Shown one piece after another: positions 1-42,245 of a DNA stretch of 42,245 nt. Each line of letters starts with the position of its first letter. Position 1 is the first letter of the stretch. The stretch comes from Candidatus Omnitrophota bacterium (GTDB taxonomy: Bacteria > Omnitrophota > Gorgyraeia > 2-01-FULL-45-10): assembly GCA_028715345.1 (NCBI GenBank), contig JAQUSB010000016.1, forward strand, positions 1 through 42,245, in the 5' to 3' direction. Made by a program: the position numbers and the translations under genes. The notes under the pieces were generated by a model that saw only the letters and a list, made by a program, of their open reading frames with translations, did no database searches and was not told where the DNA came from.

Positions 1-200
1 ATATCCTTGGGAATAGCTATATTAGCATTTAAATCATTATTATTAATAGGCGCCTTTACATTAAAAGACCCGTTGGCCGGTTTAGACCAAACGGGTGTGC
101 CTTCCTGCGCCCAGACTATGTCCTGATGGATGAATGCTGCGGCTAAAATTATTGCAATAAGCCGTATCCACCATGGTTTTTGCTGCCAAGCTGATAGCAC
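1..200 (-). CDS. Start of a secreted or membrane-anchored protein (3' end outside window)
   Basis: Seen: a minus-strand frame opens at GTG (198-200) and stays open to the left edge, giving 66 codons. The translation starts MLSAWQQKPWWIRLIAI and has a basic start, a hydrophobic core (about residues 13-23) and a likely signal-peptidase site after VWA (residues 30-32), followed by a polar Asn-rich region. Start choice: an in-frame stop lies only eight codons upstream, no ATG is available, and AAGGGGG sits six bases before the GTG. A promoter and leader hairpin precede it, so it is probably transcribed separately from the giant gene upstream. Inference: an exported or anchored protein. Signal segments ending in a QDxVWA-type motif are, as far as I recall, common at the start of large Omnitrophota proteins, so this may be another very large protein. 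Function cannot be assigned. Confidence 0.8.
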   Translation of the reverse strand, partial: MLSAWQQKPWWIRLIAIILAAAFIHQDIVWAQEGTPVWSKPANGSFNVKAPINNNDLNANIAIPKD

Positions 201-546: not shown

Positions 547-3500
547 TTATGCTGCGGCACTCAGTAGCAGAACCGCACTTCTATAAGTTTCTATCTCCTC
601 AGCGTAATTTATCGGTAAAGTCTTCGGCAAATATATGAATATCTTGCGCGTCTGGTCATAAACGATATCCGGCAATTTGTCCTTCAGGGCAGCTAATATT
701 TGTTCGTTACTGCCGTCGGTCTTCAATATATTCAACAGGGCCTCGTAAGTATTCATCGTCAGGAGTATGCTCTTATTATTTACCGTCAAAGACTGGACTT
801 CGAGGATCTTAGCTATATCAGGATCCATATCTTTAAATTCATCTTTAGCCGGCCTTATGCCTATATTATCTATGTTTGTCGCGGTCTTTATTTCGCCTAT
901 TATTTCGTCAAAAGCCTTGGCGCGTTTATCGATGAATACGATATCATCCGGGGTGCCGTCATAACCGGACGCGGCCAGGAAGGCCTTCGCCGATTCCTGC
1001 GTAGTGAATATTTCGCCGTATACGAACGCATTCCTGATACCGAGCGCGCCGGAGCGCTTCAGGTTGCGGGCAAATGACGGATCCTGGATAGCGACTTTTT
1101 CTGTGGTAGCGTGGACCGCCTTTTTAGCGTCTTTAGCAATGCCTGCGTATAGATACGCGGTATCTCCGAGCATATTTGTAAACTGCTGTCTCTGCGCGCT
1201 TACCAGCGATCTCACCTCTACGAGCCTACCCTTATTTTCGGGTCTATTCACGGCATCGACGGCGCGGCCGAAGATCTCAGCGGCATTAAGGCTCTCGACG
1301 TCGCCGAGGATCTCTTTTATGAGAGAAGCTATCCTCGTCCTTATCTCGGGGCTTATATTATTCATAGTAAATATGATGCCGCTGTCGCCGGTCAATTTCA
1401 CTGCTGCCGCTTCCTGCGCAAACCGGGCGCCGGTCATTTTGGCTAATCTGGCCGCATCATCGATGAATATGCCGGTCTGACCTTTTGCTTTTGCCAGCGC
1501 TGCAAGCGCGTCCGCATCTTCGACGGTAACTATTTCGCTTATGATATTGGAAGAGGCCGCCTTCTGCCAAACGGCGGGCTTCTCGTCTTCCGACGTAACG
1601 CCTATAAGGATCCTCATCTCTTTTCTGACCACCGTGTAGTTCGATCCCTTTGTAAACGCTCCGCGCAGAGGGAACATGTAAGGCATAGTTTCGGTTTCAT
1701 AGCCTGCGGCGTGTGTTTTTTCATGGAGCATAAGCCAGTTCTGGGCCCAATAAGGCAGATTATCGAATGCGGGGTGAATAACTATTTCATAATTATTATT
1801 TTCTAATTTTCTCGTCCCGAGCATGGGCCCTGCGCGCTCTTCGGTCGTGCCGTATTTCTCATAGGCGATGAGGATGGCCCGGGCGGACAGGGCCTGCATC
1901 ACGGCCTGCGCCGCGATCGCACCGCCCGCTGTTCCGACAAGCGCAAAAGCTGTGTTAAATACATAGCCGAAGTCGAAATGCAGTCCTATCACCGCGAACA
2001 CCAATGAGGCTCCCGCGATAACGGCGGTTTTAAATGCGGCGCTCTGCAAACCTTTACTCAGAACAGCGGCAATCGCATTCTGTTCGAGGACAGGAACGTA
2101 TGTATCTGTCGCGTATCGCTTCTCCATGGCGGCCGCCGTAACGGGTTTCTTCTTGCCGTCTGTGCCGTATGTAGCATCCATATAAGAATTGTGCATGAGC
2201 GTTTTCCAGGAATCGGAATTTTTATAATACAGGTCGGAGCATATCGCCAACTTCTCATACACATCGGCAGGAGCTTTGGAATAGAAGCCGTCTATATCTG
2301 CCTCGAGGCCGGCCGGCGTTGTCTTGGTATATGAACCTATGAAAAATCCGCTGCCGGTACGGGCAACAGTATCATATTCGGTCATCCACTCCGCAGGGCC
2401 TGCGCCGTTTATGGAGACATTCACTCCGCCGTTAAGCGCGGTCCTCTGGTCCGATGTTCCGCAGGCTTCTTCGAGCGGGCACGGTATGGTAAGGCATACA
2501 TCGGCACCCATCGCCTGCATCTTCAATGTGCTTGCGTCGGTATCCGGGATAAAGACAAATCTGCCCTTAAGGGAATTCTTATGCCAGTGCTCGAACCGCT
2601 CTACCCAGTAATTTTCATACATAGGCGCGGGTCCTCCTACTACTACCTGCATGCCGAGGCCGTGTATCTTTTCTTTACCGCCCGCAAAAAGCTGATCTAA
2701 TATCGACCTGGCTTTCTGGTGTATATCCCACTCTCCTCTTTCGTTCCTGTTATAACGACGGTTAAAGATTGGGTGTTCGGGATTGGCACTCATATCGGGG
2801 ATCTCATTCATCCAGAGATCCCATAACTCGTCTCTGGTGAATTCCTTCGTTCTGTCGGCGCATAATACATGGACAAGGAACCTGAGCACAGGGTACTGGC
2901 TCTTATATTCGACGAGCCTTCTCACCAGCCATACAGTAGGTTTCTCCGGATCGAGTTTTACACCGGTTATTCTCTCTATCTCCTCATATGCGCGGGCCTT
3001 ACCTTCCTCGTGAATTTTCCATAGCGTCTCTGTGTCCGGCTTTTCCCCGCGCGCTTCCATCTCATTCAGTTTTTCATTCTTCCATGTCTTGCCGGAACCG
3101 TTAAGCACCGGGATGACTTTCTTATTGAACGCATTTCCATAGAGCGCTTTAAAGAGTTTCTCCGTAGCTACCGCATGCTCTTCGCTGACCGCGGTTATCT
3201 CATCTGCAATATTAAATGCCGCGTAACAATAATCGATCACCGTTTTCCGCACATATCCCAAGTCTCTGAACTTTTTGGCGTTGTCTTCATCCGCAGGCTT
3301 TCCGTCATCCGTCAGCTTTATGCCTCTGGCGATAACTTCTTCACGGGTGACGATCATATTTTTGCTGTTAAAAATATGGTCGTGCTTGAAGCTCGAGGCT
3401 ATCCTGTCTGTCAGCTCTTCGGGCAGTTCCATTATCGAAATCATCCTCGGAATCTCGGGCTTCCACATATAGTCAGGAACATGCATCTCCATACCTGCCT

Positions 3501-6500
3501 TTTTCAAAGTATGGTTGGTATAGATTATCTTTGTCTTCTCGAATATCGAAGGCCTGGCCTGAGGATCTGTCATACATGCCATGCGCGCTTTTAAGACATC
3601 CGCTTTAATAAGCGCGGCCGCTACCACCGTATGCGCTTCGTTAAGGTGCAGTATATCCGGCGCGATCGAAAATTCTTTTAACATCGCGAAGACCGCTTTT
3701 CCGTAAACAACTTCCTGAGTATATCGATGCAGAGGATTCTGAGTATATAAATCATCGAACACTATGGGACACTTCAGCATATACAAAGTCGTCTCGCCGC
3801 GGTCGAGTTCATACACCTCTATTTCGTATTCCGGATTTTTGTCACCGTTATTTTTGTCTTCTTCATCCCATGCCTTTACGCGCAGTATCAGCGGATTGCC
3901 ATCCCTGCCTAAAGTCCTCCTAAGAACGCCTTTTTCGAAAAGAGCTTTGTAATCTTCCTCGACCTCCTGGCCGTTACTCTTCGAATACATGGGCATGACG
4001 CCAAATGATTTGTCGAGGCCTATATCGTTAAGCCCTTCCAGTTTGTCTCCGTAGTATGCACCGAGCCCGCCGCGCGTATTGGCGCTCTGCGCAAGGTATC
4101 CGGCAAACTCAGGGATGTTGCCCTCCATGGAAAGGCTGATGATGGTTTTATCTGCAAGAGCAGGGGCGTGCACTGCGACCCAATTTTTCTCTGCGGGCAC
4201 AACTGACGGGACACGCTCTATTACGGAGTCTATCTCCGCCCTTATCCTGGACGCTTCTGCAAGCAGATTATCGGCTCCGAAAGCGAAATATTTAGGATTG
4301 GAAGCTACTACGCCTCCTATAATGCTATCTGTCGCGGCCTTATCTTTTAACAGGACTATCGCATCGAGGGCTGTATCGTCCAAGGAACCGAAACCGTTCC
4401 TGAGCCACCAACTTATAGCGCTGACAAGTTTGTCTCCTTCATTATTCCAACCGCAGTAGGCCGCTATCGCCAGCATTTCGGCGTCACGTTTCCACGCTTT
4501 ATAATTTTCGTCTCTCCAGAACTCCTCTTCAGCCGCTTCATTCTCCGGCATCCATGCTTCTCTTATAGTCGAACGCTCGATAGGATTAAACGGAGGAATG
4601 ATGCCGAGGTTTTTCAGCTCTAAAGCCGCGGAGAGCCTTTTCGTAAACGGCGTATCAAGCGCGCCGAAGGCGGCGGTCAACCTGTCTATATCGGCCGGTT
4701 GTTCACCGCTGCGGCTCTGCATATAGGCAAGCTCTAATACCGCATTATCCACTCTCTGCTCATTCGCGTGCGAATCGATCAGATCCAATAATGCGAGTAT
4801 AGGCCACACGTCCATACCCTGCCTGTAAGCGTATTCGGCGAAGAATGCCCTCAATATCTCTCTGTTGCCGGGATCCGCCTTCTTGTAGCGTTCGACCATA
4901 AGCATGATGGCGTCGTGTTCTTCCGCAAGGCGCGCATCGGCGTCAGCGAGGAAAACCTTGCCGCGGCCCAGCCATCTCTCAAGATGCAGAAATTCATGCT
5001 CTATCACCATATCGAGACCTGCGGCTATCTGTGACTCGGTCCTATCGGACTGTCTTGCTTCCGGTAATGCGTCGAGATGTATCTCGATCTTATCCTCTTC
5101 CTGGTCGGCTATCTGCTCGATATCCGGAGTGATCTCGAATTTAACGCCTTCTGTCTTCATAAGCACAGCTGCAGGCGCGTCAATAGGCACGCCTTCCATA
5201 TAACGGGCTGTGGCCGACTCAAGACGCTCTCTCTGGGTATCGGTAAGGCCTTCGGCATCTACGGTTATGTTACCGCCTGCGTCCATCCTTGCTACGGCCG
5301 CGATAGGCGCGCCTTCTCTCATTTTCGTTGTAAGCGGGAACGGCGGGACGTTGCGGCGAGCCATATGAGCGAATATACGCGGCAGTTCCGTCTGGACTAC
5401 CTCACCGACTATATTTCTCACATTCTGTACGTTATATCTTATTTCAAAGTACGGCGAATCATCTATCCTTGAACGCTTTTCCTTGATCGTCAGTACCTTT
5501 GCCGCAGGAAGCGGAACGGCTATTGTCGTAATGGCCAATTCTTCCGCAGACGATATAGTAGAATGCTCAAGCTCGCTTATCTTCACAAGCTTTATACCAT
5601 CCTCTTCGGCAAGCCTTCTTCTCAACTCTTCGAAGTCTGTTTCATTCATGCCAAGAGAATTCGAGCATGTCCCTTTATACAGAGCGCTCGCCAACGCGGC
5701 CCTTTTGTCCAAATTTTTCTCATCGGCAAAGCCGGTACTGTCTAAATAGAACACGACGTTCGGCAGTCTGCCCACAGAGTCTTTGACCTCGCGCATAAGG
5801 TCTATAAGTTTCATTCCCACGCTCTCTTCGGTATCCGTATTCGGCGGCAGTATCCAGATAAACTGGAATGCTTCTTTGGGGTCCGACGCTCTGCGGCCCA
5901 ATATCGCAGGTATGTCTCCCTGCATTACGGTCTTCATGCTTGTGAAAGGACTCGTAGGAGCGATTATGGCGAGCTTGGCGTCTTTGGCCGCACGTTCGGC
6001 CGCCGGATTTGACGGTAATGTAGGTAAGAGATATCCGAAATGTTCTACCCTCAAGCCGGGCCTTATCCTGGTGTGGCTGAAGTAGTCCTGGGTGATCTTT
6101 CTGACGCCATTGGACATATGAGCTACGAGAACGTTCGGCGCCGAGCAGACAGGGATAGGATAACCTTTAACGTCCCCGATCGATTTGAAATTCATGTACG
6201 CGGCGTACTTGACGAGCGCCCGGTTCATCCCGAAAAGATTTATGAACCATGTCTTCTGCCCCGTTCTCGGGTTAGTATCAAAACAGAAGGAAGCGCTGCG
6301 TATCATCAAACCGAGCATTATCATATTCTGGACGGAATTCTTGTAAAGCGATATATAGCCCGACCTTATGAACATATCATCATATGATTTGGCGGCTTCC
6401 AGTATATTCTTCTCCAGGCGGGCGACCTCTTCGTGGCTTCGGGGCACATTATTTGCATCGCCTTCCAAAAGTCTCATCTTAAGCAGTGTAAGCGGAGTAT

Positions 6501-9500: not shown

Positions 9501-12500
9501 CTTCCGATCTGGGCAGGGCGGCGAATTTTACTATCTCGGCAAGCATATCGGCGCGCGCTTCCAAAACAGGATCGAATTTACCCTGGACTCTTGCGGGTTT
9601 CCGCGTAGCCTTCATGAACTGAACATCGTTTATCACCACAACGCCTTTTTCCTTAAGCCACTCTATATCTTCCGGCGTCGGGACTATAGGGCCTTCATAA
9701 TTTGCCTGGCGGAATTTCTTCTCAAGATCGGCATCAAGTTTACTCGCGTCGTTTATTACGATAACGTCGAATAATTCCTCGAATCTCCTGCCGCTCTTAT
9801 CCTCTATGGTCTCGATGAGTTCCCTGAAAGTCAGCCATACCGTCTCTTCGTCGTGGACAGGGTTCATAAAGTAGATCCTGAGAGCTTCCTTATTATCGGC
9901 AAGGGCATCGACTACCGCCTTGTCGAGTAAAAGCACAAGGAAGCTTGTAAAGAAGCTTGACAGGCCCGCCAGTATCAGTTTGGTGCGGGATGATTTCAAG
10001 CGCACTATCTCCTGCGTCGCGGGCAATACTACCGACGGATCCGTCTTAAAGAAGTCTCTCATAGCATCCCCTTCGGCGGTAGGGGTATGCGATGTCATAT
10101 CCTGCTCTATATTACTGTAACCGCTCTCGAACCTGGCCTGAAGAACGTTCGGAGGCTCACTCGTCGGCGCCGCGTATACTTTAACGCCGAGGAGTTCTCT
10201 GTATATACCGACTCCGGCGTATATGCCGGCGGGGTTGACCACATCTTTATCGTATGCGCCTGCTTTCATGAGCGACCCTACTAAAAGCAGATTTCTCAAA
10301 CTATTGCCGTGCAGGTTCAGACTGCCGTCGGCTATGAACGTCAGATCGACTATAACAGCCAATTCTTCGAGTATCTGTCTCTTAAATCTCTCGAATTCTT
10401 TATTGTAATCATAATAATACTTTTTAATACCTTCGATCGCGGCATCCGAATTGACCGCCGCAATAATGCCGTGAGCCGGATCGGCCGTGATAAGGCCGCT
10501 CTTAATAAGCTGGCCCTGTTCGTAGTCCGTTATATGGGTATAGAAATGCGCGGCGATGTCTTCGGCCGCACCGGGCGCCGTTATACCGCGCTGTTTCAAC
10601 TGCGCCGCAAACCTTAGAACATTCTTTATGCCTTCCTTATTTCTTACGTTAATGATCCCCGTGTCCTTATTAACGTTTATAAGCGTCAGATTGGGCTTCT
10701 CAGCCTTCCATTTGTTACGATGCGTAGCGTTGGTGTAGAGATGAGCGGCTATGCCTCGCGCCGTATTAATATCGACCGGGCAATCGGGGGTGTTCAGCGC
10801 TAATATCTGGCCGGCCAATTCCTCTATCTTCGCGCGCATTTCGGGAGCTACGCGGCTATCCGCGGCCATACCGCCGCCCCTTATGAGAGCGGCAAGAGAA
10901 CCTTTCACCTCATCCAGTGACGCTATATGTGTAGAGCCGAAATCATCGCCGTTCGTAAGGACGCTGACGAGTGTTTTGCCGCGATAATGCGTCTCGGCCT
11001 CGGGCTTGGCATTGAATCTCTGGTCTACGCAGTCCCTCTTCCACATAGGTATTATCTTCAATGAAGCATTGACTATGTCGCCCGGAGCGATCAGTTTTAC
11101 ATGGAATTTCTTCATGAAGAGAGCCTTTAAGTTCCTCGTGGACCCGCCGTCGTCATCGGTGCCGAGTATAGACTGCACCCACGTATCGGGATTTATCCTG
11201 TAAAGGACTTCCAATAAAGCCTGGGTACTGTTACCTCCTGCAAGAGTAACGACTTCGGACGCGTCCTCTTTCCTTAATATGTCTTCCTTTGTCTTCAGAT
11301 CGTTCAGCTTGCCGAGTTTGCCGAGCAATCCTTTGGTAAGGCTATATAGCGTCTCCAGCGCTTTCGGATCATTAGGCGCTGCATTGTACACCTGGACAAG
11401 TTCGGACCGTATGAACGGCACGGGAGAAGACGGCAGGACTATATTATGCTTAAGGAGAACGGCCCAGCAGAGATCCTTTATCGCAAGCGCATAAGCATTC
11501 CTTAATTCGCCGTACACCGCATAATTACCGAAGGCGTCTTTTTCTTCGTATAGGGATATGAGGACATCGAGTGAGCTTACCGCAGAATAGCCTGTCTTCC
11601 CAAGGGCTCTGGCTATATTCGCTTTAAGCTGCCAATAAGGTATATTCTTATCCACGATTATATTTATGCCCGCATCGATAACGGCAAGAGGCATTAATGA
11701 TTGTTCTATCATTTTACGTAAAGATTCTACGTCCGGGATTACAGGCTGTTCCCCGTCATGTACTACGACCGCGGCCAGCATATCTCTCTTCGCGTTAGCC
11801 TGTATTATGGAATAGCGTGTAATATCGGCCGATAAACCGAGATTCAATACGGGGTTGGAAGACGGAGATGTCATAAAGTTCTGCTTTTCCGGAACATATC
11901 CCGAATCACCCGGATTTTCGGTGTATCTTACGACATCGTCCAGCGCCGCCATGACCGCGCCTTCCGGATAGTCCCGCGTAGGAAGATTGGTAAATTTAGA
12001 GAATATCCTTAAAGCGCATGCCGCGCGTATTCTCGACCAGTAAAAACCTTCCGTAGAGGTATTGATATCCCTTGCTATAAGCATCGCCCGGATAAATCGC
12101 TTCTCCCTGGCTGTGCAGTTCTGGAGCTGGGCAGGATCCGTGATTTGCAGTTCAGGATTGCCGAACCTCTCCTCGGGAGAGTTGCCCGCATCGGAATAAT
12201 ATCTTTGCACAAGGGTAGGCGCTTCCTGATTTAACCTGTCCCTTATAAGTCTTTTGGCGCAATAATATAATGCTTTCTCCTTTTTCTGGGAGTCCTCGGC
12301 CGCGGCCGCCAGATATTCATTGCGCATATCTATAAATGCTTTTGCCTGTTCCGGAGTTATTTGCGGCTCCGCACCCGTTTCATGAAGTTTTTCCACCGCA
12401 TCGTGTAATACTCTTCCGGAGGTAACACTATCTTTCATTATACTTATAAGCAGGTCGCGGATAGTCCCCAGAAGCTCGAACTCGCTCTCTTCCGACATGT

Positions 12501-15500: not shown

Positions 15501-18500
15501 CCTTCCTGACATACGACATCATCAGGCCTTTATGGATATTGGGATCACTGAAACTTCTCGGATCCCAAACGTGTTTATGTCTGTAAAGGACGGTCTCTTT
15601 AGCGTTGCCTCCTGCGTCGTAATCCAATCTGACTGCAACTATCTTCATATCGCTTCCGCCGAGGTCTAAAGATACATACCGCTCCGTCCGCGTGCCTGAA
15701 GGTTTATTGCCGTTGTGTTCCGCGGCGTACTTAACGTAATATTCCGCCTGGGAAGCATAACAGCAACCTACGGCTTGTCCGAATTCATCGACAAGCTCCG
15801 CCTGTTTTTCCATTTCCTCTTTTGAGGCTTTGGCATACTTTTTACGAGCGAGGTTATCCGCGCGTGATATATCCATATCTTTTATGCCGTATTTTTTGGC
15901 CAATGTATCCCGAGCCGCCCCTATAATGATAGGCCCTGCTTCTTTAGCAACCATACGGCCGAAAAGTATGACGTTCTTTACCCGGCCTTTAGATAACAGA
16001 TATATGCGGCGTAAGCCTTCGGCGAAGTATTTCCCTATCTGGACATACATAGTATTGGCTTTTATCTTGTCGTTTTTCTTGGTACGCACGGCGTCATCAT
16101 ACAACTGTCTCATAGCCGAATCCTCAGGCAGCTTGTCTATACTCGCGTTCCTATCGGCTTTTTTCAATTTCTTCTGCCAATCCTTAAACCATTCTCTCTT
16201 TAATACATCGTCCTCCATCAGGCTTCTGACATACTTAAGACGGCGGCCTTCATCGCTTACCCATGCGATGAAATTACTCATATCTTTCAGACTTCTTAAC
16301 ATACGCAGCGTAAGCTCCGTATCTGCACCGGCATATAAAGGAATAAGCGCGTCGAGCTGCTTTTCGGCGTCTTTGGTCTTCAGGTCTTCCCACTTCGCGG
16401 CGTCTTTAGCTTTTACCAGGGCTTCTATATATTTGCCGAGATACTGCATCTTATCATCGCCGAGATCAAGCTCCAATTTCTTTGCGCCTTCCTCGACAAG
16501 TTTATTAATGAATTGGTCGACGCATTCTTTCTTGTCCTCTTCTTTCTTCGCCACAGGCAATTCTACGTCCGCGAGCTTGGCCAGCATACCCACAAATAAC
16601 GGCGTCCATTCCTGCGGCTTCTTGCCCTGCAGGCTGAGAGCGGTGCGCATTTCGAGGCCGGCCGTCATCCTGTCGGCGTCGAAAGTTTCACCTTTTTCTA
16701 CCGCCTTTTTAGTCAATTCCGGCGTCTGTTTCTCTACCGCAAGCTTTAACAATTTGTCGGAAATATTCCTGAATACTATAGGAAGCCATTCGTCTTCTGA
16801 TACTCCGTCAAGCCTGTCCGTCATCCCCATCGATTCCGCCAGTTCCACCGCGGTATATAAAAGGGTCTGCCTTTCCATATCTATGCCGGCTTCCGGCGCC
16901 ATTCTCAGAAGCGCATACTGCGCTTCAAGCATCTGCTGAGCGCCGCTGAGTTTCGATATCCTGTGGCCGGGAGAAGCAGGATCCATATCGACGGGCACCA
17001 TGCCTGCTTCTGCATAATATCCGAGTATATTACCTTCCCTGTCCGATACGCCGCACGCGTATCCTGTACCCATAGCTATACCGAGGTACATGTCTACAGG
17101 CAGGGAAGCTTCAGTCTGGCGAACGCGCTCGAGAAGATCGGCCTTGAAATTCCTGGCAGGTTCGGCGCCTTCAGGCTTAGTCATAGCCGCAGGGTCTACC
17201 CATTCCGCCCTGAAGTCTTTATATATCATCCTGCCGTCGGAGCGCTCGTATTTTTCACGCGTGCCTGCTTTAAAATTGCGCTCCACTTCTTCGGCAAGAT
17301 TGCGCGGTCCGTCTATGTATATGCCGCGCGCTCCGAAGTATGCAGTAAGCCAATACGAGAACGTTATAGCATACCTGTCTATTACGGCTTTCACCTCGGG
17401 ACTGCGCGAGGCCCTGTCGTATGCCGGCACCCAGAATACAAAGCTCATGACTTCGGACTTTTTGCCTTCTTCAGGCTTTTTGCCGAGCTCTATATATACC
17501 GTAACTTTCTCTTTACCCTCTTTAGTATGGTCCCCGGTCGAGAACGCGTTAAATACCCTGTCCCATTCCGAAATCTCTCTGAATTTTTCCTGCCACGGGT
17601 TACCGGCCTCTGCCTTTACCACAGACCGTCTGGGCAAAATACCGGCAAGCTCGAGCACATCGGCAGGTATCTCATTGAGCCATCCGCGTTCTATATCGGC
17701 CGTAATTTCTGTCTCCGGCGTTACGCGCGCCTTGGTGGCGATCTGTATGCGGGTCCTTAATATAGGCTCGAGCGCCGCCATCTTCTCCTGCAGAGAAGCG
17801 GCATATTCGACGTCCCTGTTCGCGGCCTCATCTATTCTGTCCGCCAGACGCTCCCTGTTGGTAAGCCTGTTTAATACCCCGGCCTGTTTAGCGGGATTGA
17901 AGAGAAGCGCTATCGCGGCGCTCGTAAATCGGCTCTCGCCTCTTACCTTGCGCAGTTCATCGGAACTGTCCAGGTCGGCATTAGGTTTGTTATCGAGGAG
18001 GTCTTTTATCGCGTAGAACGTCCTGTCTTCCGGAAGACGTCCGATGAGATCTATCAATTCCTGTTCCGGCTTCATCAGGCCCAGGCTCCCCGGTTCCAGC
18101 CCTATGACAGCCCCGGCCTTTATTTCTCTTCCTTCCGGTATGACGCTATTTACGACCTTCACATGAAGGAGGGCTTTCCTGCCGTGCATAGCCCGCAGAG
18201 GCGTGCCGGAATTTACGCCGATGAACGAATTTTCGAAATCGGAACCTATCGCCGCAGTGTACGCGTGCATCTCGCCGTCATTCCTGTCGACGCGCAGAAG
18301 CATCGTGACCCTATCCGGATCGTCACCGTGGGTCTTGCCTTTAAGGTAATGGTCGGAGAATACGGTATTTAACGCCCTGCAGTTCCTCAAGCCCCAGCCT
18401 TTGCCGACAAAGCTATGGCGTAACGTCAGGCCCCACGTATAACACGCATTACCTATATGGGAGGTGGTGTCCATATCAAGGTCTTCGAAGAGGCGCGTGC

Positions 18501-21500: not shown

Positions 21501-24500
21501 GTGTCAGAGAATCGATAGAAAGCTCTTTTCCGGTTCCCGCGGTCTTCTTCGATAGCTCGTCGCCTAAGGTTATAGACATCATCGCGACTGCCGTTAATGC
21601 CAGCCTGACCGCCTCAAGCTCAAGACCGGAAGCCTGCAATAATAGCTTACGCGCAGTCTTTAATTGCTTATCCGCCTCTTTATCATCTTTGCCTTTTGCC
21701 TTCTTATATGCCTCGAACGCTTTTACGGCCTCTTTTCGTTCGGCTACACCCCTGTGCTGAAGCTTAAGTATATTTGCCCCGTCCATAAAATCATTCTGTA
21801 TATCTATCCTGACGGTATTAAGCACAAAATCCATAAACGCCGCGTCATCCGCAGGGATATCTCTGCCGGGATAAAGTTTAGCAAGAGCCTGCCGCAGTGA
21901 TGCACCTATATTTTGTGTATGCCTTCCCGCGTCATCGAGATGCGCGTTATCGCCAAGAGCGAGGAATTTCTGCCAGAGATCTTGTATTATAGCCGCCTTG
22001 TAACCTTTGAGCTTATCAAGAGGCCTGTCCAGATCGCTTGTTTTTAATTCTCTGTCGAGAGTGCTTTCGTCGAAGCCAATAATAGGTTTCAGCTTCTCGT
22101 TCCAGTCGACTTCCCATATATTTATATGGTCATACGCTTCTTTTCTCAAATCGTAGACTATAGCGTCATCGTTTCTCAGTAGTTCCAATGCCGCACCCGC
22201 ATCTGCCAGACCGCAGGCATCCTGCACTATTTTCAATGCCGCCGCGTCGGCAACCTTAGAATTTTCCAGGTGGCGCGTTACGCCGTTGGCCATATTAGCG
22301 CCTATCCTATAAAGATCGATAAGAATGGCGGCCACTTCATAAGACGGCATATCGTTCAGGACGAGCGGCCGCAGTATAAACCTTATATTCCCGTTCTTAT
22401 CTTTCGTAACGGTGTCAGAACGCCGCGCAAATTCCAGGGCAATGTTTATTTCGGCATCGGACGGAGTTTTAGACGTAATAAGGCCCTGACCGGTCAGGCT
22501 CTTCACTATCTTCGCGCGCTCCTTTACTGCGGCGTCATCTTTAAGGCCCTTTAAAAGCCCCTCTATAGTAGAAGGCCCTACGTCCAGCTTGGTGTCGTCC
22601 ACCACAAGGCCGCCTTTACGCTCTATCTCTTCTATCTTCGCAGCCACATCTTCGTCGGCTTCTTTTATACGTTTAAGCGCCGCCGTGAACGAATTATGCT
22701 CCGTATCCACGGCTATGGGCAGTCTTGCCTTGTCCGTCTTGCCGGCCTTTCCTGCTTCTTCGACGAGAATATCGCATATCAAGACATTGCCGGCTTCATC
22801 ATCCTGGCGCCGCGCGCCGACCTTATATTTGTCCGCTATAGCGCTTACATCGGCCGCGGCTATATCGCTTATCGAAGCGTCTTTTAACGCGCTTTCAAGG
22901 AATGAGATCGTCTTCTTCTTTTTAACCTCGTCCTGCTCTATCTTCTCGAACGCGATGTAAATTAAAGGCCTGTGTATGCGTTCGGCATCCGCAAGCCTAG
23001 GATAAAGTAAACCTAAAGTAACATGATCACCTTTTTCTTCGGCCTTGTTTATCTGCGCCCGTATCGCGGCCGCTTCGGGATTTTCCCAGATCCTCCATAA
23101 GACGACCAGGAACTTGACTAGCGATTCGTCCTTGTCCATGGCGGAGGCGGCGGCATCCATATAAGACATCCGGCTCTTCTTCATGAAATTCTCGAAGCCG
23201 GCGATTTCCGCGTTCGTAAGAGAGTCTTCGAGCATCTTGCGCGCCTTCTTAAGTCTCATAACGAGCCTTACCCTGCGCTCAAATTTATCGGTAGTCTTAG
23301 CCATAACGTCGCGCCTCGTCAGAAGATTGACGAACCGCTCGCTCGTGTCGGGTTCCGGCAGAAGCTCGTTCTTCTGCGTCTCCGTCATCTGGGCTATGAG
23401 CGATTTGGCCAGCTCCTCATCCTTCGACATTATTTCGGCCAGGAACTCGATATAGCTGATACCTTGTTCCCTTAAAATTTCCCGCACATATGCGTTATCT
23501 ATGACCAACCCCATGCCAAGTGCGGCGCGCATCTCGTTCGTGAGCCTATCAAAGAATGCTTTGTGATCTTTTATGCGCGCGGGCATATCTTTGCCTCTGT
23601 AGTAGAGCGTTACGTCGTCGGCCTTGCGCGCGGCTTCCGAAGGATACATCTTGCCGGCCTCAATGAATTTGCGGAGTTTATCCGGATCAAACCTGCCCTC
23701 GCGGCCCACTCCTCTTATATCGGCGATATTAAGCATTACCATAATGTTTGTAAATGCCTGAGCGCCCGATTTGGCGCCGCGCTCCGGCGTTACGGATACA
23801 CCCGACATCGCCGCGGCGGATTCGCCGAGGCCGAAGTAGGCATCTTCGCCGTACCCGAGGCGGCTTACAAAGCTGTGGTTCTCGACAAGAGAGCTCGCCA
23901 TATCGATAAGCTTTTCGTCCCAGTTGAATCTGTCACGCAATATCTTTTTGACCATAGCGGCCGAAAGGTGCACGTGCTGGGGCCACGAGACCGATTTACC
24001 TATATCGTGCAGTAATATCAGCATCCAGACGAGCGTCCTGCCGTCTACCTCGGACACTTTACCCGCCTCAGGCGACGCCGACCTGACACGGAACCCGGAG
24101 ATCTCCCTGTAGAATTCCACCACTTCCATAAAGCCTTCGAAAGTAAGCGAGCTGAGTGTGCCGCCTGTCCTGTCTATATATTTCTGATGTGCCCGGCCGA
24201 GTTCTGTCTTAAGGTCCGCCGCGGCCTTCTTATCGCCTCTCGCCTCAGCTTCCTCTATGGCGCTAGCGGCGCGGGCGGCGTCGTCAAGTATCTGCAGGTT
24301 ATTGAGTATGCGGAACATGTGGGCCATCATATGGTCATAGTCATGCGCCCTCTCGACGTGGAGAAGGTCGAGATCGGCAAGTTCAGGCAATAGTTTAAAT
24401 AATGACTTGTCTCTTATAGCAGACTCAAGATAGCCGGCCGTGTCGCCGCCATTTGCAAGTTCAGCGTTAAATCTGTCCCTTATCGCATTGAGCTCTGCTG

Positions 24501-27500
24501 CCGGAGCAGCATCTGCCTGGATAGACGTTATAAGTCCGGTCACGATTGAGCCGTCCTTATCACCGTCCTGAGCAAGCCTGTTTCTCATCAATATCCTCGT
24601 AAATCTGGACGGATTATCGACAAATGTATCGGATTCCGGAGAAGAAGCAAATATAATAACATTAGCAAGTTGGTCTTCAGGCTTCGCCAATACCAATTCT
24701 TCCATAAATTGTTTTATAAGCGCAAGATAACGCGGGTCGCGGCCGGCCCGATCCGTTACTTTTTGCACATTTTTCGAACCTACCACCATGATCCAGCCGT
24801 CGACAGCACTCTTCACAGTATCGCTGTCTGCCGCAAGCCCGCACATAGTAATGACGCTGTCCCGCAGCGGAGCCGAAGGCACTTCGGCACGGCTCATAAC
24901 ACTGTCGATCTTAGCTACATCGGCGTCCGACATCAGGCCCACTTCACGCAATAATTCCGAGAAGCTCGCTATATGAGCGCCGTTCGCCGCACTGTAAACG
25001 GTGCCGCTAACCCACGGATCATCGTCGACTTTCTCGACCCCGAAGAGCTTTCCGCCGGCCTTCACAACGGAGTCGTTAAGGGGTTTGACGCCCATTTGCT
25101 CCGCCACAATGGCCCTGACGGTCCCTTTCGGCGATTTCTTGGTACTCGTATCTCCTACGAGGGCCTTCATGAAATCCTGCTCGTCGACGTCGTTATAATT
25201 GCGCCCTTTAAGAAGTTTTTTCATGTGGTGATCTTTGAATTCTTTATATTCTTTCTTAAGGTTTGCCATGACCTCGTCGCGCGATATTTTACGGATGATC
25301 ATGACCTGCTGTATATCGCCTTTTAAGTAGTCGAGCATGAACCTTATGGCGCGCACTTCTTTTGAAGCGCCATGAGTCTTTTCCATTGCTTCGAGCCAGC
25401 CCGTAAATCCGCCGCCGTCTTTTGCCGCGACAAATCCGAGGCCCTGTTCTATTTCGGCCTTTGTGACGGATCCGTCGTTCTTGAGCTGTTTGACTAAAAA
25501 GTCCACGCCTGTCGCTCCCCATCTTTCGATGACCGACTGAGCGCTCATCCTGCGCCTATGGAGAGTCACGACCTGGAAACCGAGCTTTTTAGTCAAATGC
25601 TCCAGTATCTTCTTCCTTAATTCAGGGTTGAGTCCGCCGAATTCTCCGCCTTTAAACAGCATAAAACTTACCGCGGACTTATCGCCGTTCTTATCGTCTT
25701 TCGCTTTCGTCTGATTGCGATCGTAAAGTGCGGTCAGGCGGGCTGTCCTTGTCTCGAGGGCCTTGTCTCTGGCCGTCTCGTCATTCCGCACAGCTTGTGC
25801 AGCGGCAGTCAAAACAATTTGTTTTGCGACGTTCGCATCACCTTTGGCCTCAGGAGGTTTAGTGTCGATCTCCGTGAACATACCCGGATACTGCTCGAGC
25901 GTGGCCGCGACCCTGTCGCGCCTGTCGCGCAGTTCTATCTCGCGGGCGACATCGCTTAAATCCCTTGTAATGCCTTCATCGGCTATCATCCTGTCGCGCT
26001 CTCTTCTTGCGCGCTCGGCGAGATCCGCTTTCAGATAGAGGTTCGTCGCCGCTCCTTCGGCAAATCCGCGGCCGGCCACCACGACTCTGCCCAGACGCGC
26101 GGCGAGTCCTACGATCGCACGCTCGCGCTCAAGCATCTCGGAGCGGAGCTCATCGGTCGCGCGGAGCGCGCCCACGGCCTCGTCTATCTCCGGGGTGTGG
26201 AGCAGGCTTTCCGAAACTATCTCATTATCTACGCGGATCGTGCCGTCCCTGAACGAAACACGAGTGTCCCGGACTATCTTTAAAAGTCCTTTCGGATCGT
26301 CAAGCGATGACAGCTCCCCGCGCTTTACGGCCTGGATAGCTTTATAAGTATAAGCCCTGTGGATATTGCCTTCATCTATATACGCACAGCCGAGATTCGC
26401 GGCCAGATCTTTTGCGGTCGTCGTCTTGCCGCTCCTGGCCTGTCCTACGACATTTATGATATTCTTATCCCTTAAGAGATCGGCCATCTGCTTGAATGCG
26501 CTCGCACGGTCGTCACCCTTGGCCGCGCTCCTTACGTATCCTCTTAAAATGAGCGCGCGTTTGGCATTCTGCGGCAGTGAAGAAGCATGGATCGCGGCAT
26601 CGTCGTAATCCCACATCAGATATTCGATCATTATATCGTTATCGGCGTAACCTTTGTTCCACGCCTTCCAGAGAGAGCCGAAGACCCCGATCCTTTCGGC
26701 CGCGCTAAATCTGTTTATAGCCGCGAATTTGCGGCCGAGAGCATCTTTAAGAGACTTTATCGCGTCAGAATTCTCGGAGAAGACGTATACGGCGGAATCG
26801 AGTATTTTTATAAGCTCGTCCGAGCTTAAGCTTTCGACATCAAGGACGTTCTGTGCGGGTATCGAAGCATCTATCGAATTCCTTACGAAAGCAAGCTTTA
26901 AATATTCCGTGTAAATATCGGTCGCAGCCGCCGTGTTTGCAGGCATTTCCCTGCCGAGACCCGCGGCCATATTGCGCAAAGTCTCGCGCCTTACGGCTTC
27001 CGCTGTTTCGGGAGCTTTCCTCCTGTATACCGCCAAACCGGCAGGCATGCGGGACTCCTCAGCCAGTTTATCCTGCAGTTTTTCTTTGTCTGAAACCTGC
27101 GGCAGTAAGGCGATTGCCTCTTCGTAACCGGCGCGCCACAAAGCGCAACCTGAGCCGGCAAGCTTGGTCTTGCCGGATTCCGGCAGACCCGGCATGGCAA
27201 GGAGCGAATTGTAAAGTTTCTTCGAATTTTCGGGATCGACCGGCGCGGTAATATCGAACGCCCGGAATTTGATAGATATCCCGGTCCTCGCTTCGGCCTG
27301 GGCGGCGTTGAAACGGTCCATGGCGTCGCTCAATACGGCGTCGAATACTTCATCACTCGTTCCGCGCCCTGTAAGCAGCATCGGCACGGCGCCTTTTAAC
27401 CCTATGTAACGGCCTGCCTCGCCCTCCGAGCTTCCGTAAAGCGCGATGTCATGCTTTACTATACTGTCATACAGTTCTCGCAGGGCGGCCCTTAATATAG

Positions 27501-30500: not shown

Positions 30501-33500
30501 CGGATATCTTGGCTGTCGGCGCGGGAGGAGCCCTTGTCGGAGCAGTATGTTCTATTATGAATTCTCTGAAATCTTTTATATCGTCTGAGGGCATCAACCC
30601 GAAATCTATCAGCAATTCATCGTTAGTGCCGGATGAGTGAATGCCGTTGGCGCTGGCAAATATCGTAGTGCGCGGCGCTGACATGTTATAACCTTCGTTG
30701 ACGGTATCTTCCAGAGCGCCGCCTTTGCGCAGTTCCTCGCCCACGAGAGCTCTCAATGTGCCGGGCGCGGCGCGATCGGTCTGTGCGTCGCCTATTAAGA
30801 GTTTATTGACGAATTCCTGCTCGGTCGCATCGTTCAAACCGATGCCTTCGGGTAGATCGAGCGCCTGGCGCGCCTCTTCGGCAGATATGCCGTAATCTTT
30901 CAGTATGTCATCCCTAGAAACTTTTCTCTCAAGGCATATATACTGCGTATCTTTCTGCAGATAAGACCACAGGAAGTAAAGTCCGCGTATCCTTTCGACG
31001 CCGTCGTAAGTATCGTTATTGTATTTCTTCAGTATATTTTCCAGCCATCTGTTAAAACGCTCACCCTCGAACCTGTTAAGGGCATGTAAGGCAAATCTGT
31101 ATTCCGCGGGCGTTATGGTGCGGCGTATATTATCGAGGAGTTTCTTTATACCTGTCGGCCCCCATCTCTTCAATACGTCATCCGTCGATATCTTATTTGT
31201 CCTGCCGGCTTTCACATTATAATGGCGCGCCAGCCTCGCGAGTATCTTCTGCCTGACCGCCCAGTCCAATCCGCCGGAATCTCCGCCTTTTAGGACGACC
31301 ATCGCGTAAGACTTATTATCCGCAGATCTCGTCATGGCATCGTAAAGTTCCATCCTCGCGGTATCGCGCCTCATCGAAGCGCGCAGGGCCGCGAGATTCA
31401 CATCCATCTCGCTTACCATCGGCGCGGCCTCGGGAGCGGCTGTGACCGGCGCGGCCTCGGGAGCCGACGCCCATTCGTAATACACACGGTCCCTGCCTTC
31501 TAACTTGGCCTCAGCAGTTGCCTGTCCTGCCGCCAGTATCACATCGTCTACGGTCCTGCCCGGCGCCATATCCGCACCGCCTATCGACACACTGAAGGCG
31601 GGAACGACGCGTTCCGAACCTTCGCGTATAGTTAAAGTCACGGCCAGTTTATTCAATTTATTATTCCAGTTCTCTACGCACTGCCTCGCCGCTTCTTCAG
31701 GGCGCTGGCCGGGCCGTATGTCGAAGAGGAATATCGCTTCCCCGTTCGCGTCTATAGCAAGGGTCTTGCCGACCACTTTGTTTATCTCCGCTCTCCTTGC
31801 GCTGTCTATATCTTTAAGGCCTGTTAAAGTCGCCTTGCCTATAGCCCCGCTGCTTCGCTCCGTAACACCGCGGCGTATGCGCTCAAGTATTTTTTCGGCA
31901 AGTTCCCGATCTACGAGAGTTTTGTTTTTCGTATATATGACTATGTGCGATTCGTCGCCTTTAAGGCTTACCTGTATAACGTTGATATTGGCAAACGCCG
32001 GATCTTTTCCTATATCGTCCCGTATTATATCCTGGATGATTATTCGGACCTTACCGGCAAGCTGCTGCTCTCTGCCGTATGCCTCGAGCATCCTCGTTAT
32101 CCTGTCCATATCGACGAGGCCTATGACAAAATCGGTGCCGTGATCTGTCAGCTCCTGCAGTATCCTCTGTCCTTCTCTGCGGGAAGTCACCCTCTCTTTA
32201 CGCTCCATAAGCGGCACAAATTTTCTTACGGCCGCGGGCTTTTCTGCCTGTCTGAGTGTTCCGCCGTCGAGATCATATACGGGAAGCTGTATGCCGGCGA
32301 TCGTATCGAGATTTCCGCGGCCTCTTACCATGACGAGGTCGGCGTTACGTAAAGCTCCCGCCGCGCCTTCACCGAGATTTTCCAGGTCTATGCCGTAACC
32401 GGCCGGGCCGTCTTTTACCAGAATGAATCTTCCTTCGGCGCCTTCGCTTAAGAACTGCAGAGGATGCGTTGCGGGCAGGTTATTTATATCCGCTATAAGC
32501 GCGTCCTTCGCCGTGCCGTCCGGGACGTTCGCATTTATAAAATTGCGTAAATCATCGGCCGCGGTCGGCTCTTCGAGCCTTATGGCCTTGAGCGCTCCGA
32601 TAAGTTTAGTTCTATTATCTTTATCTTCAACGGCGTCGAGTGAGTCTTTTGCGCGCGACTGTATCTGCTTTAAGAACGCCGCTTTCATCTGCCTTAAATT
32701 TACAAGCAGGTTTTCCACGTCTGAGGCGGTGATATTTCCGGCAAACCTCCGGGCCTTAGGCAAGGCAACCACAGTAAGGCCCGGATTGCCGATAAGCATG
32801 TTCTGGATAAGGATGAGATCGTTTATATCTTTTACGTTGTCGCCCAGGACGACCACTATCTTATTCATCCTGCCGATACCGTCTATGGCGGCTGAAGGCG
32901 CTTCGCCTGCCGCGAGTGCCTTAAAGTTATTTTCCCTGTTCGCCTCGTCTATAGATTCTAATTTTTCGGCAAGCGCTTTCTCGTCCATCTTCTTTAAGGC
33001 TATCTCCATGGCCATAAAGTTGAATGTGAGATATTCGGGTATCGTAAGGTCGAGCCACAATTCATGCCCGAGATACGTAGGAGTCCACGCGTTGAATATC
33101 GCGACGATGGACTTAACATAACTGGTCCATTCTTCATCCGTTATATTTCTCGCGGCCAATTCGGAGCCGATCATCTCTTCGGCCATAACTACGACTTTTG
33201 CCCTGTCAGAATCACCGAGCGAGCCGACCTTTACCGCCCTGGAGTAACGCGGATCTACATAACGCGATACGAGATCTTTCGCTCTGGTCCCGATCTCGTA
33301 ATACGCCGCATCGGCATCGTCCACTTTTTCCGCTCTCGCCAGCAATATGTCTTTGGCGTGGCGCTCGGCGCGCATCAGCGACATTCCAGTGGAAACACTG
33401 ACCATAGCCGCTCCCGTGCTGACTGCCGGCGCGGCGCCTGCGGCGGCGCCCTTCTGGTAACCGCCTTTAGCCGGCGCTGCTGCGGCCGGTGCCGCGGCCT

Positions 33501-36500
33501 GAGCTGCGGGCGCTGCGGCCTTCGCCTGATATCCACCCTTAGCGGCAGAGGCTGCGGCCTGAGGCTGTGCGGCTTGAGCAGGTGCGGCGGCCTTAGCCTG
33601 GTAGCCTCCCTTGGCGACCGGTGCTGCTGCCTGTTGGGCCTGAGCGGCCTGCGGCTGTGCGGCGGCTTTCGCCTGGTAGCCGCCTTTGGCGGTCGGCGCT
33701 GCTGCCTGAGGCTGTGCGGCCTGAGCGGGCGCTGCGGCTCCCTTCTGGTAGCCTCCTGCCCTCGCGGCAGGCGCCGCTACAGGCGCCGCGCCTCCCGCAA
33801 CCGCGACTCTCTTCTCGCCTGTAACCTTCAGAACACCTCTCGATTTCAATAACGCTATAACGGCCTGTGAACTTTCACGGTCGGAATTCACTTTAAGATT
33901 TATGGCGGTGATATTACGTCTTTCTTTTCTCTCGCGGCGCGCGTTCATCGCTTCATTTATCACAGCCTCTATATTTATACCTTTATTCTTTATGAATTCC
34001 AGCGCCCCTACGGAACCCAGGATGCCGGTCATCACTTCTATATTAGCGGCGTTTACGTATAGGCTTAATATCATTTTATGCAGTTCAGCATCGGCAACCG
34101 CCGGCTTGTCCGCTTTAGCGAAAAATTTCGTCAGCACTTCTTCTGTGGCCCTGTCCATAACAAAGTCGGTGTCCGCATATTCGCCCATAAATCTGAGCGC
34201 CCTGAATACCTGCAGAAACGTTATGTCGTTTTCGACGCCTGCGGTGAAATTGAATTTCAATACACGGCTTTCGATATCCCACTGGCCGTCGTATTGGTCG
34301 TAAAGTCTGTATTCGCCCTGTCCGCTCCTCGATACTACAAGGCGGTTTATTGTAAGGTCTGGGAGCTCTCCGAATACCTGTTCATTGCCTTCGAGAGCAT
34401 ATATCGTCCCGTCCTCACCGACCGCCGCGGCGAATTGGACATGCCTGCCGTCGACTACCGCTGTATTATTCTTTATATCCTCGGCAAGGACTCCCCATCT
34501 TTCCGCATGACGTCCAAGCTCGGCTTCCGCCTGCCTGAGGGCTTCATCTCTTACGGCTTCATGGACCATATAGCGCCTTAATGCTTCCTTTAATACGTCC
34601 GGCTCTTTTACGCCGCGGCGCCTTAGCAATAGATCTACGACCGCGCCCCTTAAATGCTGGGCAAACCTATCCTTAAATCTCGGGTCTGCCTGCAAACGTT
34701 TTATCAATTCCGACCAGCCATGCGGCGACCTGCCAAGCGCCTGCCTTACCTCACGCTCAGCCTTCTCCTTAGCCTGGGAAACCCGGACACGCACCATAAC
34801 GTCTATATCTTCCGTTTTATCTTCCCTGTCCATGATCGCGTTACGCACAGCGCCGCCGAATACCATTACATCGGGAGAGCTCTTCGCCATGAACGTATCC
34901 AGCGCGCCTCCGGCAGGTATCTCGCCTTCCAACATACGTCTTGAAACATCCCAGCCGCCGTCTATGACCCATTCCCGCTTCGAGGTGAGCTCTTCGCCGG
35001 TAAGCCCGTCTGCTACTTTAGCAAATCCTGCCGCAACAGCCTCCTTCATCCCGTCCTTCTTTTCGGCCTGGAGTTTCAATATCAGCTGTTGCCATGCTTC
35101 TTTGGAACCGTCGGACTGTCTGTGAAATGCCTGAATATCCGCCGCGGGTAGCATAGCCTCGGAGAGATCTCTCTTGCGATCGTATCTCAGGTCATGCGTA
35201 AGATTATTCACGCACCTGTCCATATACAAGGCCGCGTCGCGCCGGACGAGATAATCGAATATCCTGACCATTGCTTCCGGATCCTCTGCGCCGCCCACGA
35301 CATCTAAAAGCGCATTATATACACTCCTGTATCTGCGCAGTATCTCTATCTTGGAAAATCCCATGTTTTCGCGTCTATACATCGCGTCACGGACCCTTCT
35401 CAGCAACTTCCCGCCGGATCCCGTAACGGCTTTAAGCTGGCTCATCGTATGTTCGCCTTCATACATGCGCCGTTCGACATTAACGCGCTTGCCTTTATTA
35501 AGCTCTTTGGCAACCAGCTCTCTCTCTTCTGCGTCAATACCGTTCTGATATGCGATCAGCATCTCCACCTCTTTGTCCGCGGTAAGGCTGAGAAGATCCT
35601 CGACGGCGTCGAACGCCTCGCCGGCCTTCTTACTATCTTTTACGTAATAATTTATAATATCGCGGACGATGCGCCTCTTTTCCGCGAGCGACGTATAAGG
35701 CCAGTATGTATCTCCGAGCCTGCGCGGGCCTATGCGCCCGGCTATCGCCGCTACCGCCATTATGAGTTTATAACGGTCTTCGTCTATCTGCCCGGCGAGA
35801 AGGTCCATGATCGCGGGCTTTCGCTCGGAAAAGATCCTCGACATAATACGCGCCCTTAAAAGACTCGGCGTCTTCTGCCACTCGTTCTTCCACTCCACAT
35901 CCCAGAATTCCAGCTGGTCTAGCTCTTCTCTCTCTATATCCTTATAAAATTCAGACTCTCTGATACGGTGTATTTCGGCTTCCAATTCCCGCCTGCCCTT
36001 GAGATCAAGATTGGTAAGGTAAAGCAGGTAGAGGCGTATCCTGTCGAGATCCGGATTGACATCTACCGACGCAGCCATAAGCTCATTTATCTTTTTTATC
36101 GCGCCGCGGTCATTAACGGCTTCGCCCTCTATATCTTTCTGAAGCTCCGACGCCGTGTGCATAAATGTGAGATCTTCGTGGCTCGTAGTGCCGCCGAATT
36201 GGGCCGAGTACCAGATAAGATACGGGCCGACTATCCACGAGAATAGATAGATCGGGAACCCTCTGAAGGCAAGAGCAGGGTCGAGTATTTTTAACACCGG
36301 GCAATTCGCGCCGGCGAATACGTATAATAAGGTAAGGGCGAGGATAGACGTCCCGAGTATCGGCGCCCATTTATACTCGCGATATACCGCGCCCAACGGG
36401 AGTCCCCGCGCCGACATCCTCTCCGCCTGCAGAAGCGTAACCCACTCGAACCTCCTGCCTGTGAGTATCGTGATAACGCCTTCTTTGATATCTCCCGTTC

Positions 36501-39500
36501 TGTAAATGAGGTTTATCATAAGGATACCGGTACCTATCAGGGTCTCCGATATCGCCCTTTTCGCGATGTAATACAATTCGGGAGCTATGGCAAGCCTAAT
36601 AGCCTTATTGTATGCCTCTTCCGTTCCCCTTGATCTCAATACTCGCATGCGCAGTTCTATAAGTTTTATTATTGAGACAGGCACCGCGAGCCATGGTAAC
36701 GCCGACGGTATGCCTCTTATCCAGTCGAGCAGATAAGTCGCTGACGGCACAGCGCGTATAGCATTTTCGAGATAAGCGGAAATTCCCGAGAGCACAGCCG
36801 CGAACGGCGGGGCGAAGAACGCGGCAGCTATGCCTATGCCGAATATCGTAAGCAGGGCGACATTCCGGACCGGATGCTTCGAGTACACAGCTTTCACAAA
36901 AAGTCCGAATAGAACCAAGCCGTACGAAATATGCGTAATATGCGGTATATTCATAACCGCAAAATATGTTATAACAACAATCGCTCCGATAAAGCCCAGG
37001 TTAACTAAAGTACGCCATGAGCTGCCCCTGGTTACGGCTCTCAAGCCTTCCACAAACACCTTCTGTCCTATGAGAATAGCAAGAACCCATTCGAATATCC
37101 TTATGGCCATCCACGGTTCGGACGATGTCAGAAGGCCTATAACGATGGTGGCAGGAACACCGAGTATAACGAGCCAGGCCACGAACGCCGGCTCCGATAT
37201 TATACCGCGTATGACAGCGCCTAAGTGCATCTTGGCCTCGAGGGTAAGGTGCGTCCTCCCTATCGTCTTATGGCCTATACCTCCGGCAAGAGTTTTAAGC
37301 GCCTGAACGCCTTTGAAATTCAGAAGCTGGAATAAAGCGGTAAATACGAAGTGCTCTATCTTCAGGACAAGGAAGTCGCCCGGTATCCAGCGGTTACTCC
37401 TTATACGGGCGGCCTGGAAACTCGAAGGCGTAAATTCCAGCACCCTCATCTTAAGCCTCTGGCCTTTTTCATCCGTGCCCTCGATAATACGCGCCGTATT
37501 CGACCACATGGCCTCCCACAGGTCGTGGCTTCGCACATTCCACGGTATTACTTTCTTATAATATATGTCGTTGAATACTTTCGGGGTATTGAATGCCATC
37601 TTGCCTACGGCGGATGATGCGCGGTATGCTAAGAAGTTGGCCGGGTCTATGTAAGACAAAATTACCTGCGCCCACACCTGGAAACGCGCATACATGGATT
37701 TACCGACGTTGTAATAATCGACGAGCGCCTGGTACATTCCCCACTTCTCTTCGCCTTCCACATCGTATGCCGCGCGGGATATAATCCTCTTAAGGTGATT
37801 TGCCGGTATCTCGTTCTTATTGTCCATCTGCGCGGGTAGGAATACGCTTCTATCCGGCTCTACGGCATGTCCGGCTTTATCTTTTACGATATCGAAAGCG
37901 CCTCGCGCATCGGGCGTTAAAAGGAATGATCCGACTTTGATCATAACATTTCCGCTGCCGTCTATCGCGAACCCTTCTTCGTTTATAGTAAAGTTACTGC
38001 GCTGAGCTATCTGCCTTGTAACTATAAGGTCGCCGGTCTTCTCGTCTATTCTCACCTCTCCGGCGCCGAAAGTCCCTTTGAGACTGATCTCAGGATCGGC
38101 ACTATCCACGTCTTTATTACGTATGTTATCGAACTCATCGAGAATAAATGTGCCGGCGCGGGCCGCTATAATATCATCGGCCTTTCTTACGGCATTGCCG
38201 GCGTCATCTATATATATGTCGCCGAAGCGGGCTATGACGCGTCGGACGCGATAGGTGCCGTCGCGGACTGCGTATGTACCGTGTCCGGCCAGCTGTTGAT
38301 ATTGGACAAGGTTGCCTGTCGCAGGCTCTATTATGACATTATCCTGCACGGTCCTTACGAACGGGAGATCGAAATCGGAAGTACGGTTCTCATCTTTCTC
38401 TATGACGGATTTACCTGTTTTCTTAAAATGGATCAGCCTGCCGTCAACTACACGGAAACCGTCGGCATAATTCGCAAGATACCCGCCCTCCACTTCCTTA
38501 ATAAGACGGCTCTTTACAAGGCGTCCGAATTGCGCGCGGGCCGTACCGGTCAGAGCCTCAAAAGTCTCCGAACTTATAAAGTAGGTATCTTCTCGCCCTG
38601 TCTTTCCTATATTAAGGCAATCTGTGTCGGCAAAGCATCCTTCCGCAAAATAGAGATCGGCCTCTTCTTTCGTTATACCGCCCGCGTAGAGATTGCCGTC
38701 TTTATCCTCGCGCCAGGTCCCTTCTCTGGCCAGTATCAGGCCGTCTAGCGCGATAGCGTCGCCCGTAGCTTTATCTATCTCCCACCCTCCCACACCGGCC
38801 ATCTTCTTAGTGCGGCTGCTCGGCTTCGTAATAAATCCTGTGGCGGGATCGACCTCATCGGTAAAGGCATCGAGAAGCGCGCGGTCGAAATGATGATACG
38901 TATCAAGCTCGAATCTCCTGCCGTCGTAGAACGCGAGAGGATCTTCCAGTCCTTTGGAGTCCGACGATATCAGCATAGACGCTTTCTTTGTCTTCATAAG
39001 GATGCCGTCTTTCGTCAGCTCATACTCATCGTAGAAAGTCTGCGTGTCGGACGGTTCTATGCCGCGCAGGCTTGCAAAGATATTACCTTTCGCGTCCAGC
39101 AGTAAACCGTCCTTCGTCAATTTAAGCGTAGTGACTTTACCGGCCGCGTCAGTGGCAAACACGGTCTGGTCGAACTTCATAATGATCTTTTGCGGGAGCG
39201 CCCTTCCGTCCTCACCGATCATAGGGGCCCCCGGATGGCGTTTATTTATGAGATTGCCGAAACGGTTTATCTCATACATATCTTTAGTCGCGGCAAGCGT
39301 TCCTGTCCTGTCGTCATAAAGATCGCCTTCCAGCATCCTGTACCGGATGGCGGGGTTTTCCGCGTCGTATAGATACATCTCGCTGGTTACGCGTATATCC
39401 ATAGGCTGGCCGTTTATAACGGACACTTTACGCCTGCGGTAGAATTTAGTATCGTCGGCATATTTCGCTTCCGCAGGCTTATTGGTATTCACGTATGTAG

Positions 39501-42245: not shown

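Follow-up and report, generated by a model that had tools for sequence, protein, structure and literature searches.

A giant open reading frame in an Omnitrophota genome that probably encodes a modular exported protein and ends in a C-terminal module that recurs in other giants

The window, which is the whole stretch of 42,245 nucleotides that was analyzed, holds most of one genuine, single gene of giant size. The gene probably encodes a giant modular exported protein of an Omnitrophota bacterium, whose genome holds at least one more gene of this kind. Its open reading frame covers positions 547..42243 on the minus strand, with 13,898 codons and a stop codon at 547-549, while its 5′ end lies off the contig. 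There are no Ns in the window and no stops in this frame, compared to 265-1,023 stops in each of the five remaining frames, and a frame of this length has a chance probability of ~10^-301 when base composition alone is considered. Codon-position GC was even throughout when the frame was divided into 14 bins (1,000 codons each), which is the pattern of one continuous coding sequence. These counts reproduce the reading of a first-pass annotation, made from the sequence only, in which the frame had no stop from the right edge to 547 and its first available start was a TTG at 42202-42204, preceded by 13 sense codons; this TTG is indeed the first ATG, GTG, or TTG codon of the frame. An Rfam scan of the window detected no RNA element. 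Long antisense ORFs (15830-18016, plus strand) had no Pfam match and were set aside as shadows of the coding frame.

The window is the entire contig G000:C18 of a 1.6-Mb genome in 65 contigs, so that a frame leaving the window also leaves the contig. When its first 1,000 residues were used as a query in the same genome, contig C65 (14,903 bases) was found, with 100% identity over the overlap. The assembly junction is a 126-base exact overlap of window positions 42117..42242 (minus strand) with the 3′ end of C65, in the same frame; the outermost three bases of the window (42243-42245) differ from C65. C65 itself is open from end to end (4,967 codons), and the joined frame comprises at least 18,823 codons, or 56.5 kb, of which the window holds 41.7 kb, encoding a protein of 2.09 MDa. 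The gene thus exceeds the window and its product 1.5 MDa, both of which had been predicted in the first-pass annotation. Residues of the joined protein are numbered here from the end of C65 (J, equal to the window residue plus 4,925), which places the junction at about J4926-4967. Single BLAST alignments cross it in G024 (J3738-7736) and G017 (J3649-5148), which belong to the family of the window's genome, and lie inside unbroken frames in both cases. With both relatives collinear over the join and free of stops there, the gene is neither a chimera nor a product of chance.

Extension to the right therefore found the continuation of the gene on C65, but not its true start: the frame is still open at the 5′ end of C65, and no overlap of this end with other contigs of the genome was found. 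Two further contigs of the genome, C40 and C51, both begin inside the N-terminal module that is described below, and their first 127 bases are identical. The genome thus contains two giants or more, with starts so nearly identical that they broke the assembly, which is probably why the start of the window gene is missing. C40 and C9 were checked as upstream pieces, and both carry SecA-like modules. No overlap between C40 and C65 was found. C40 is a candidate for the 5′ part of the window gene, and if it is indeed the upstream part, the protein would be longer than 21,000 aa. The SecA-like modules of C40 and C9 are paralogous (~63% identical), on contigs that are each open throughout, and their Walker A motif reads GGGKG, where relatives have GGGKT.

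That Omnitrophota carry giant ORFs has been described before (PMC10066038, PMC12057145, PMC11573180). ORFs of more than 20 kb were reported for 77 of 116 species representatives of Velamenicoccia and for 20 of 23 of Omnitrophia (PMC10066038), and V. archaeovorus has an ORF of 39,678 aa with peptide evidence (Seymour et al. 2023, PMC10066038). Giants of up to ~85,800 aa are attributed to a preprint by West-Roberts et al., as quoted in PMC12057145. With an Omnitrophota host and a single frame of more than 20 kb, both within the window and after joining, the gene resembles these published giants, and its size by itself is consequently not new. Its earlier description as far outside normal bacterial size does not place it beyond what is known, given how common such ORFs already are in Omnitrophota (PMC10066038). 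Further features in common are membrane helices, few annotated domains, poor conservation, and carbohydrate-related parts. What is shown here in addition is a C-terminal module that many giants share and that ends at the stop codon, together with modules of cyclic glucan synthases. In the published accounts consulted, which do not include the West-Roberts et al. preprint, no mention was found of a shared C-terminal module, its exact end at the stop, or cyclic glucan synthase modules.

The conserved C-terminal module (550..1479, minus strand) spans 310 aa, ends in YLPKTLPINYAEEIETYRSAVLLLSAAA directly at the stop, and was modeled by AF2 with a pLDDT of 79.6. It matches the ends of frames of 11,305 aa in G021, 10,021 aa in G023, and 3,237 aa in G005, and also the end of the frame on C51 of the window's own genome (at least 11,160 aa). 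A profile of the module matched 26 of 292 genomes of the class, among them at least 19 from the family of the window's genome, which is itself one of these. In all 10 loci examined by an HMM check, the stop codon directly followed the module. An [ASNT]A ending was present in 12 of 17 large ORFs (at least 2,000 codons) versus 12 of 462 smaller ones (Fisher p 5.6e-14), in genomes that are related and partly picked for holding giants, and are thus not independent. The module was also found on frames of 368 to ~1,000 aa, some of which possibly lie at contig ends. No convincing relative was detected in Pfam or the PDB, and a fold search with the module returned nothing below an E value of 0.001. 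By sequence comparison, the module defines a family among related genomes; the earlier statement that no single family describes the protein therefore stands for the protein as a whole, but not for its last 310 residues.

The opposite end is conserved as well. Complete relatives have a conserved N-terminal module, ahead of which a signal-peptide-like segment (type TFINQDIIWAQ) forms the very start, and the G021 and G023 frames of 11,305 and 10,021 aa each combine a signal-peptide-like start, a SecA-like Walker A motif, and the C-terminal module. Because complete relatives start in this manner, we infer a signal peptide for the window protein too. A profile of the N-terminal module gave only chance-level matches against the PDB; it may adopt a ChaN/EreA-like fold. 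Downstream of the giant, the window contains the start of the next gene (1..200, minus strand), with a GTG start codon at 198-200, AAGGGGG upstream of it, and a signal-peptide-like N-terminus (WWIRLIAIILAAAFIHQDIVWAQ) similar to the starts of the giants of G017 and G021. A promoter-like site before this gene (302-275) was no better than expected by chance. Between the two giant genes, there is also an inverted repeat (CTATCCTCGCCTC...GAGGCGAGGATAG, 411-467) without a T run, which is a possible terminator or small repeat element.

In G017, G021, and G005, giant genes stand after genes for RND pumps, and a tandem pair of RND pump genes precedes another large frame on contig C12 of the window's own genome. 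We treat this adjacency as a lead to a link with the giants rather than as proof. In G005 (G005:C14:19100-102164), four consecutive large frames of 9,651, 10,558, 3,237, and 4,058 codons stand in tandem after two RND pump genes. In the near-complete assembly of G021, one uninterrupted frame (G021:C10:52628-118336, plus strand) runs for 21,903 codons, which exceeds the joined window frame; it contains YD/RHS-like repeats and ends in AAISA. The Omnitrophota giants might even form one coherent exported class that is defined by its ends: a signal peptide with the conserved N-terminal module at one end and, at the other, a previously undescribed C-terminal module ending in YLPKxLPIxYxxEIExYRxAxxLxxAA at the stop. 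The latter would be the sorting or anchoring signal of an export route dedicated to these proteins, in which the neighboring RND pumps would perhaps take part, while the cargo in between would be freely swapped. We put forward this generalization tentatively, and it may well prove wrong.

Between these ends, the frame encodes membrane bundles and modules derived from glycan enzymes. Hydropathy analysis gave ~20 hydrophobic segments, predicted to be transmembrane helices, in line with the several membrane patches noted earlier; about 9 of these form the first bundle (40234..41472, minus strand). The best conserved module in the window (37219..40206, minus strand) is located between two such bundles and is 43% and 51% identical to its counterparts in G017 and G024, respectively, over ~1,000 aa. 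Its AlphaFold model had a pLDDT of 38. The last part of the module can be aligned with the GT84 portion of proteins in which a GH189 domain follows, and relatives gave a weak match to Glyco_trans_2_3. Together with the membrane bundle that follows, this glycosyltransferase module, similar to GT84 (cyclic beta-glucan synthase), occupies 36274..37926 (minus strand); SHDxxE and RxRWxxGD are kept, and the DxD motif has become DNK in all three giants compared. A second module, similar to alpha-glucan phosphorylases (GT35; 2086..4074, minus strand), carries EACGTSDQR at 2443-2469, and in an alignment to PDB 9l6i has an arginine at the expected position of the PLP lysine.

A third glycan-related module lies on C65 (G000:C65:4802-6451). 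This Glycoamylase module, a GH189-like barrel that is related to the cyclic beta-1,2-glucan synthase NdvB, matched PDB entries 8wy1 (E 1.5e-37) and 8rf9 (2.3e-28), and is 51-54% identical to stretches in G017 and G021. The barrel is circularly permuted, with its C-terminal part before the N-terminal part. C65 also encodes diverged repeats of ~200-240 aa each (J ~2,350-3,700). The closest known arrangement is that of NdvB/CGS proteins (GT84 + GH189 + GH94), with which the giant shares its GT84-like and GH189/GH144-like 'Glycoamylase' modules and a GT module next to membrane helices. In the giant, however, the permuted Glycoamylase module is upstream of the GT module, which reverses the order, and ~4,500 aa away from it; the DxD motif is lost, and the total length is many times greater. 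No GH94 match was found in Pfam and NCBIfam scans of the 18,823 codons.

Other modules resemble housekeeping enzymes, and the combination of glycan and nucleotide enzyme folds anticipated by the first-pass annotation is borne out by domain matches of both kinds. All lie on the minus strand. They include a cytidylate kinase-like domain (25903..26460, E 5.4e-20), in which the Walker A motif GQARSGKTT is kept and GRD has become GRG, and a CofD/YvcK-like domain (9628..10317, E 1.3e-19), of which a second, divergent copy with 29% identity is located at 5674..6435. An ARMT1-like phosphatase domain (32290..32967, E 2.7e-7) exceeds its gathering score, while an HD-domain-like segment with its HD pair present (23863..24039) scores slightly below. 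A segment similar to the head of CCA-adding enzymes and poly(A) polymerases (33901..34863) is a weak match under curated cut-offs, in which DxD is kept (DID) and GGAVRD reads GGAVRN; an Ala/Pro/Gly-rich linker with ~3.5 copies of a 72-75-base repeat occupies 33494..33757. At what we take, from established knowledge of the families, to be the catalytic positions, the kinase Walker A, the HD pair, and SHDxxE and RxRW of the glycosyltransferase are kept. By contrast, the PLP lysine (to arginine), the glycosyltransferase DxD (to DNK), GGAVRD (to GGAVRN), and, on other contigs of the genome, the SecA-like Walker A (GKT to GKG) are changed.

Some of these modules count against export, as cytidylate kinase, CofD, CCA-like, and SecA-like modules are of cytoplasmic types, which is odd for an exported protein, and some key residues (the kinase Walker A and the HD pair) are kept. 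They could instead belong to a megaenzyme of the cytoplasm or inner membrane, in which glycan and nucleotide domains are active in the manner of an assembly line. The cytoplasmic families matched (cytidylate kinase, CofD, HD, and ARMT1-like), the intact kinase Walker A and HD pair, and a GT84-like module flanked by membrane bundles in the style of glucan synthases would all fit such an enzyme. The substitutions listed above are difficult to reconcile with activity, however, and complete relatives open with a signal-peptide-like segment, making this an unlikely explanation. Domain scans of the joined frame revealed no PKS/NRPS, carrier, or peptidase domains. Readings of the gene as a PKS/NRPS, toxin, or phage gene were rejected, as no domains support them.

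Equally unlikely, in our estimate, is that the frame yields several proteins, either from a single chain that is cut afterwards or from several internal starts. The many unrelated modules with linkers between them could suggest this, as could the short frames that bear the C-terminal module and a split in G024, in which the region matching the giant is divided by one in-frame TAG (G024:C251:21033-21035) into 6,014 and 8,055 codons. This TAG, which also counts against a single exported chain, may be due to an error in sequencing, to a genuine split of the gene, or to its decay. Against several products stand the lack of any peptidase domain in the scans and the complete relatives of 10,021 and 11,305 aa, which are bracketed by a conserved signal-like start and the C-terminal module. 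Finally, although the metagenome-assembled genome is fragmented, the three edge bases differ from C65, and the assembly breaks where two giants share sequence, an assembly chimera or decaying frame is highly improbable given the 13,898 open codons on the window's contig alone, the collinearity of two species across the join, and the even codon-position GC.

Under the favored reading of a giant modular exported protein, the missing 5′ end would carry a signal-peptide-like start as in the relatives, and the protein would enter the Sec pathway. The membrane bundles would then hold it in the envelope, and the C-terminal module may be a tag, shared by the giants, for sorting, anchoring, or docking. 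Its middle would be swapped in, consisting of diverged tandem repeats, of glycan enzymes that stem from cyclic beta-1,2-glucan synthase, and of partly decayed housekeeping-enzyme folds, which may have a structural or binding function. Surface giants and large secreted adhesins, such as those of Patescibacteria, Nanohaloarchaeota, and Apilactobacillus, are similarly very long single chains that contain repeats and are exported, as the giant is predicted to be. The giant differs from them in its many enzyme-derived modules, its internal membrane bundles, and the lack of a recognized sorting signal of a known type. From its modules and the proposal published for V. archaeovorus (PMC10066038), the most likely role of the giant would be in cell contact and surface glycans, where it may contact and process glycans of its own cell, of a partner, or of prey.

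For the questions of what giant bacterial proteins do and by which route a 2-MDa chain is exported, the shared start and C-terminal module offer a handle by which giants can be recognized and counted in fragmented genomes, and the C-terminal module is short enough to be tested on a reporter, so that the full-length protein need not be handled. The decayed enzyme folds, in turn, suggest that giants grow through the capture of ordinary genes.
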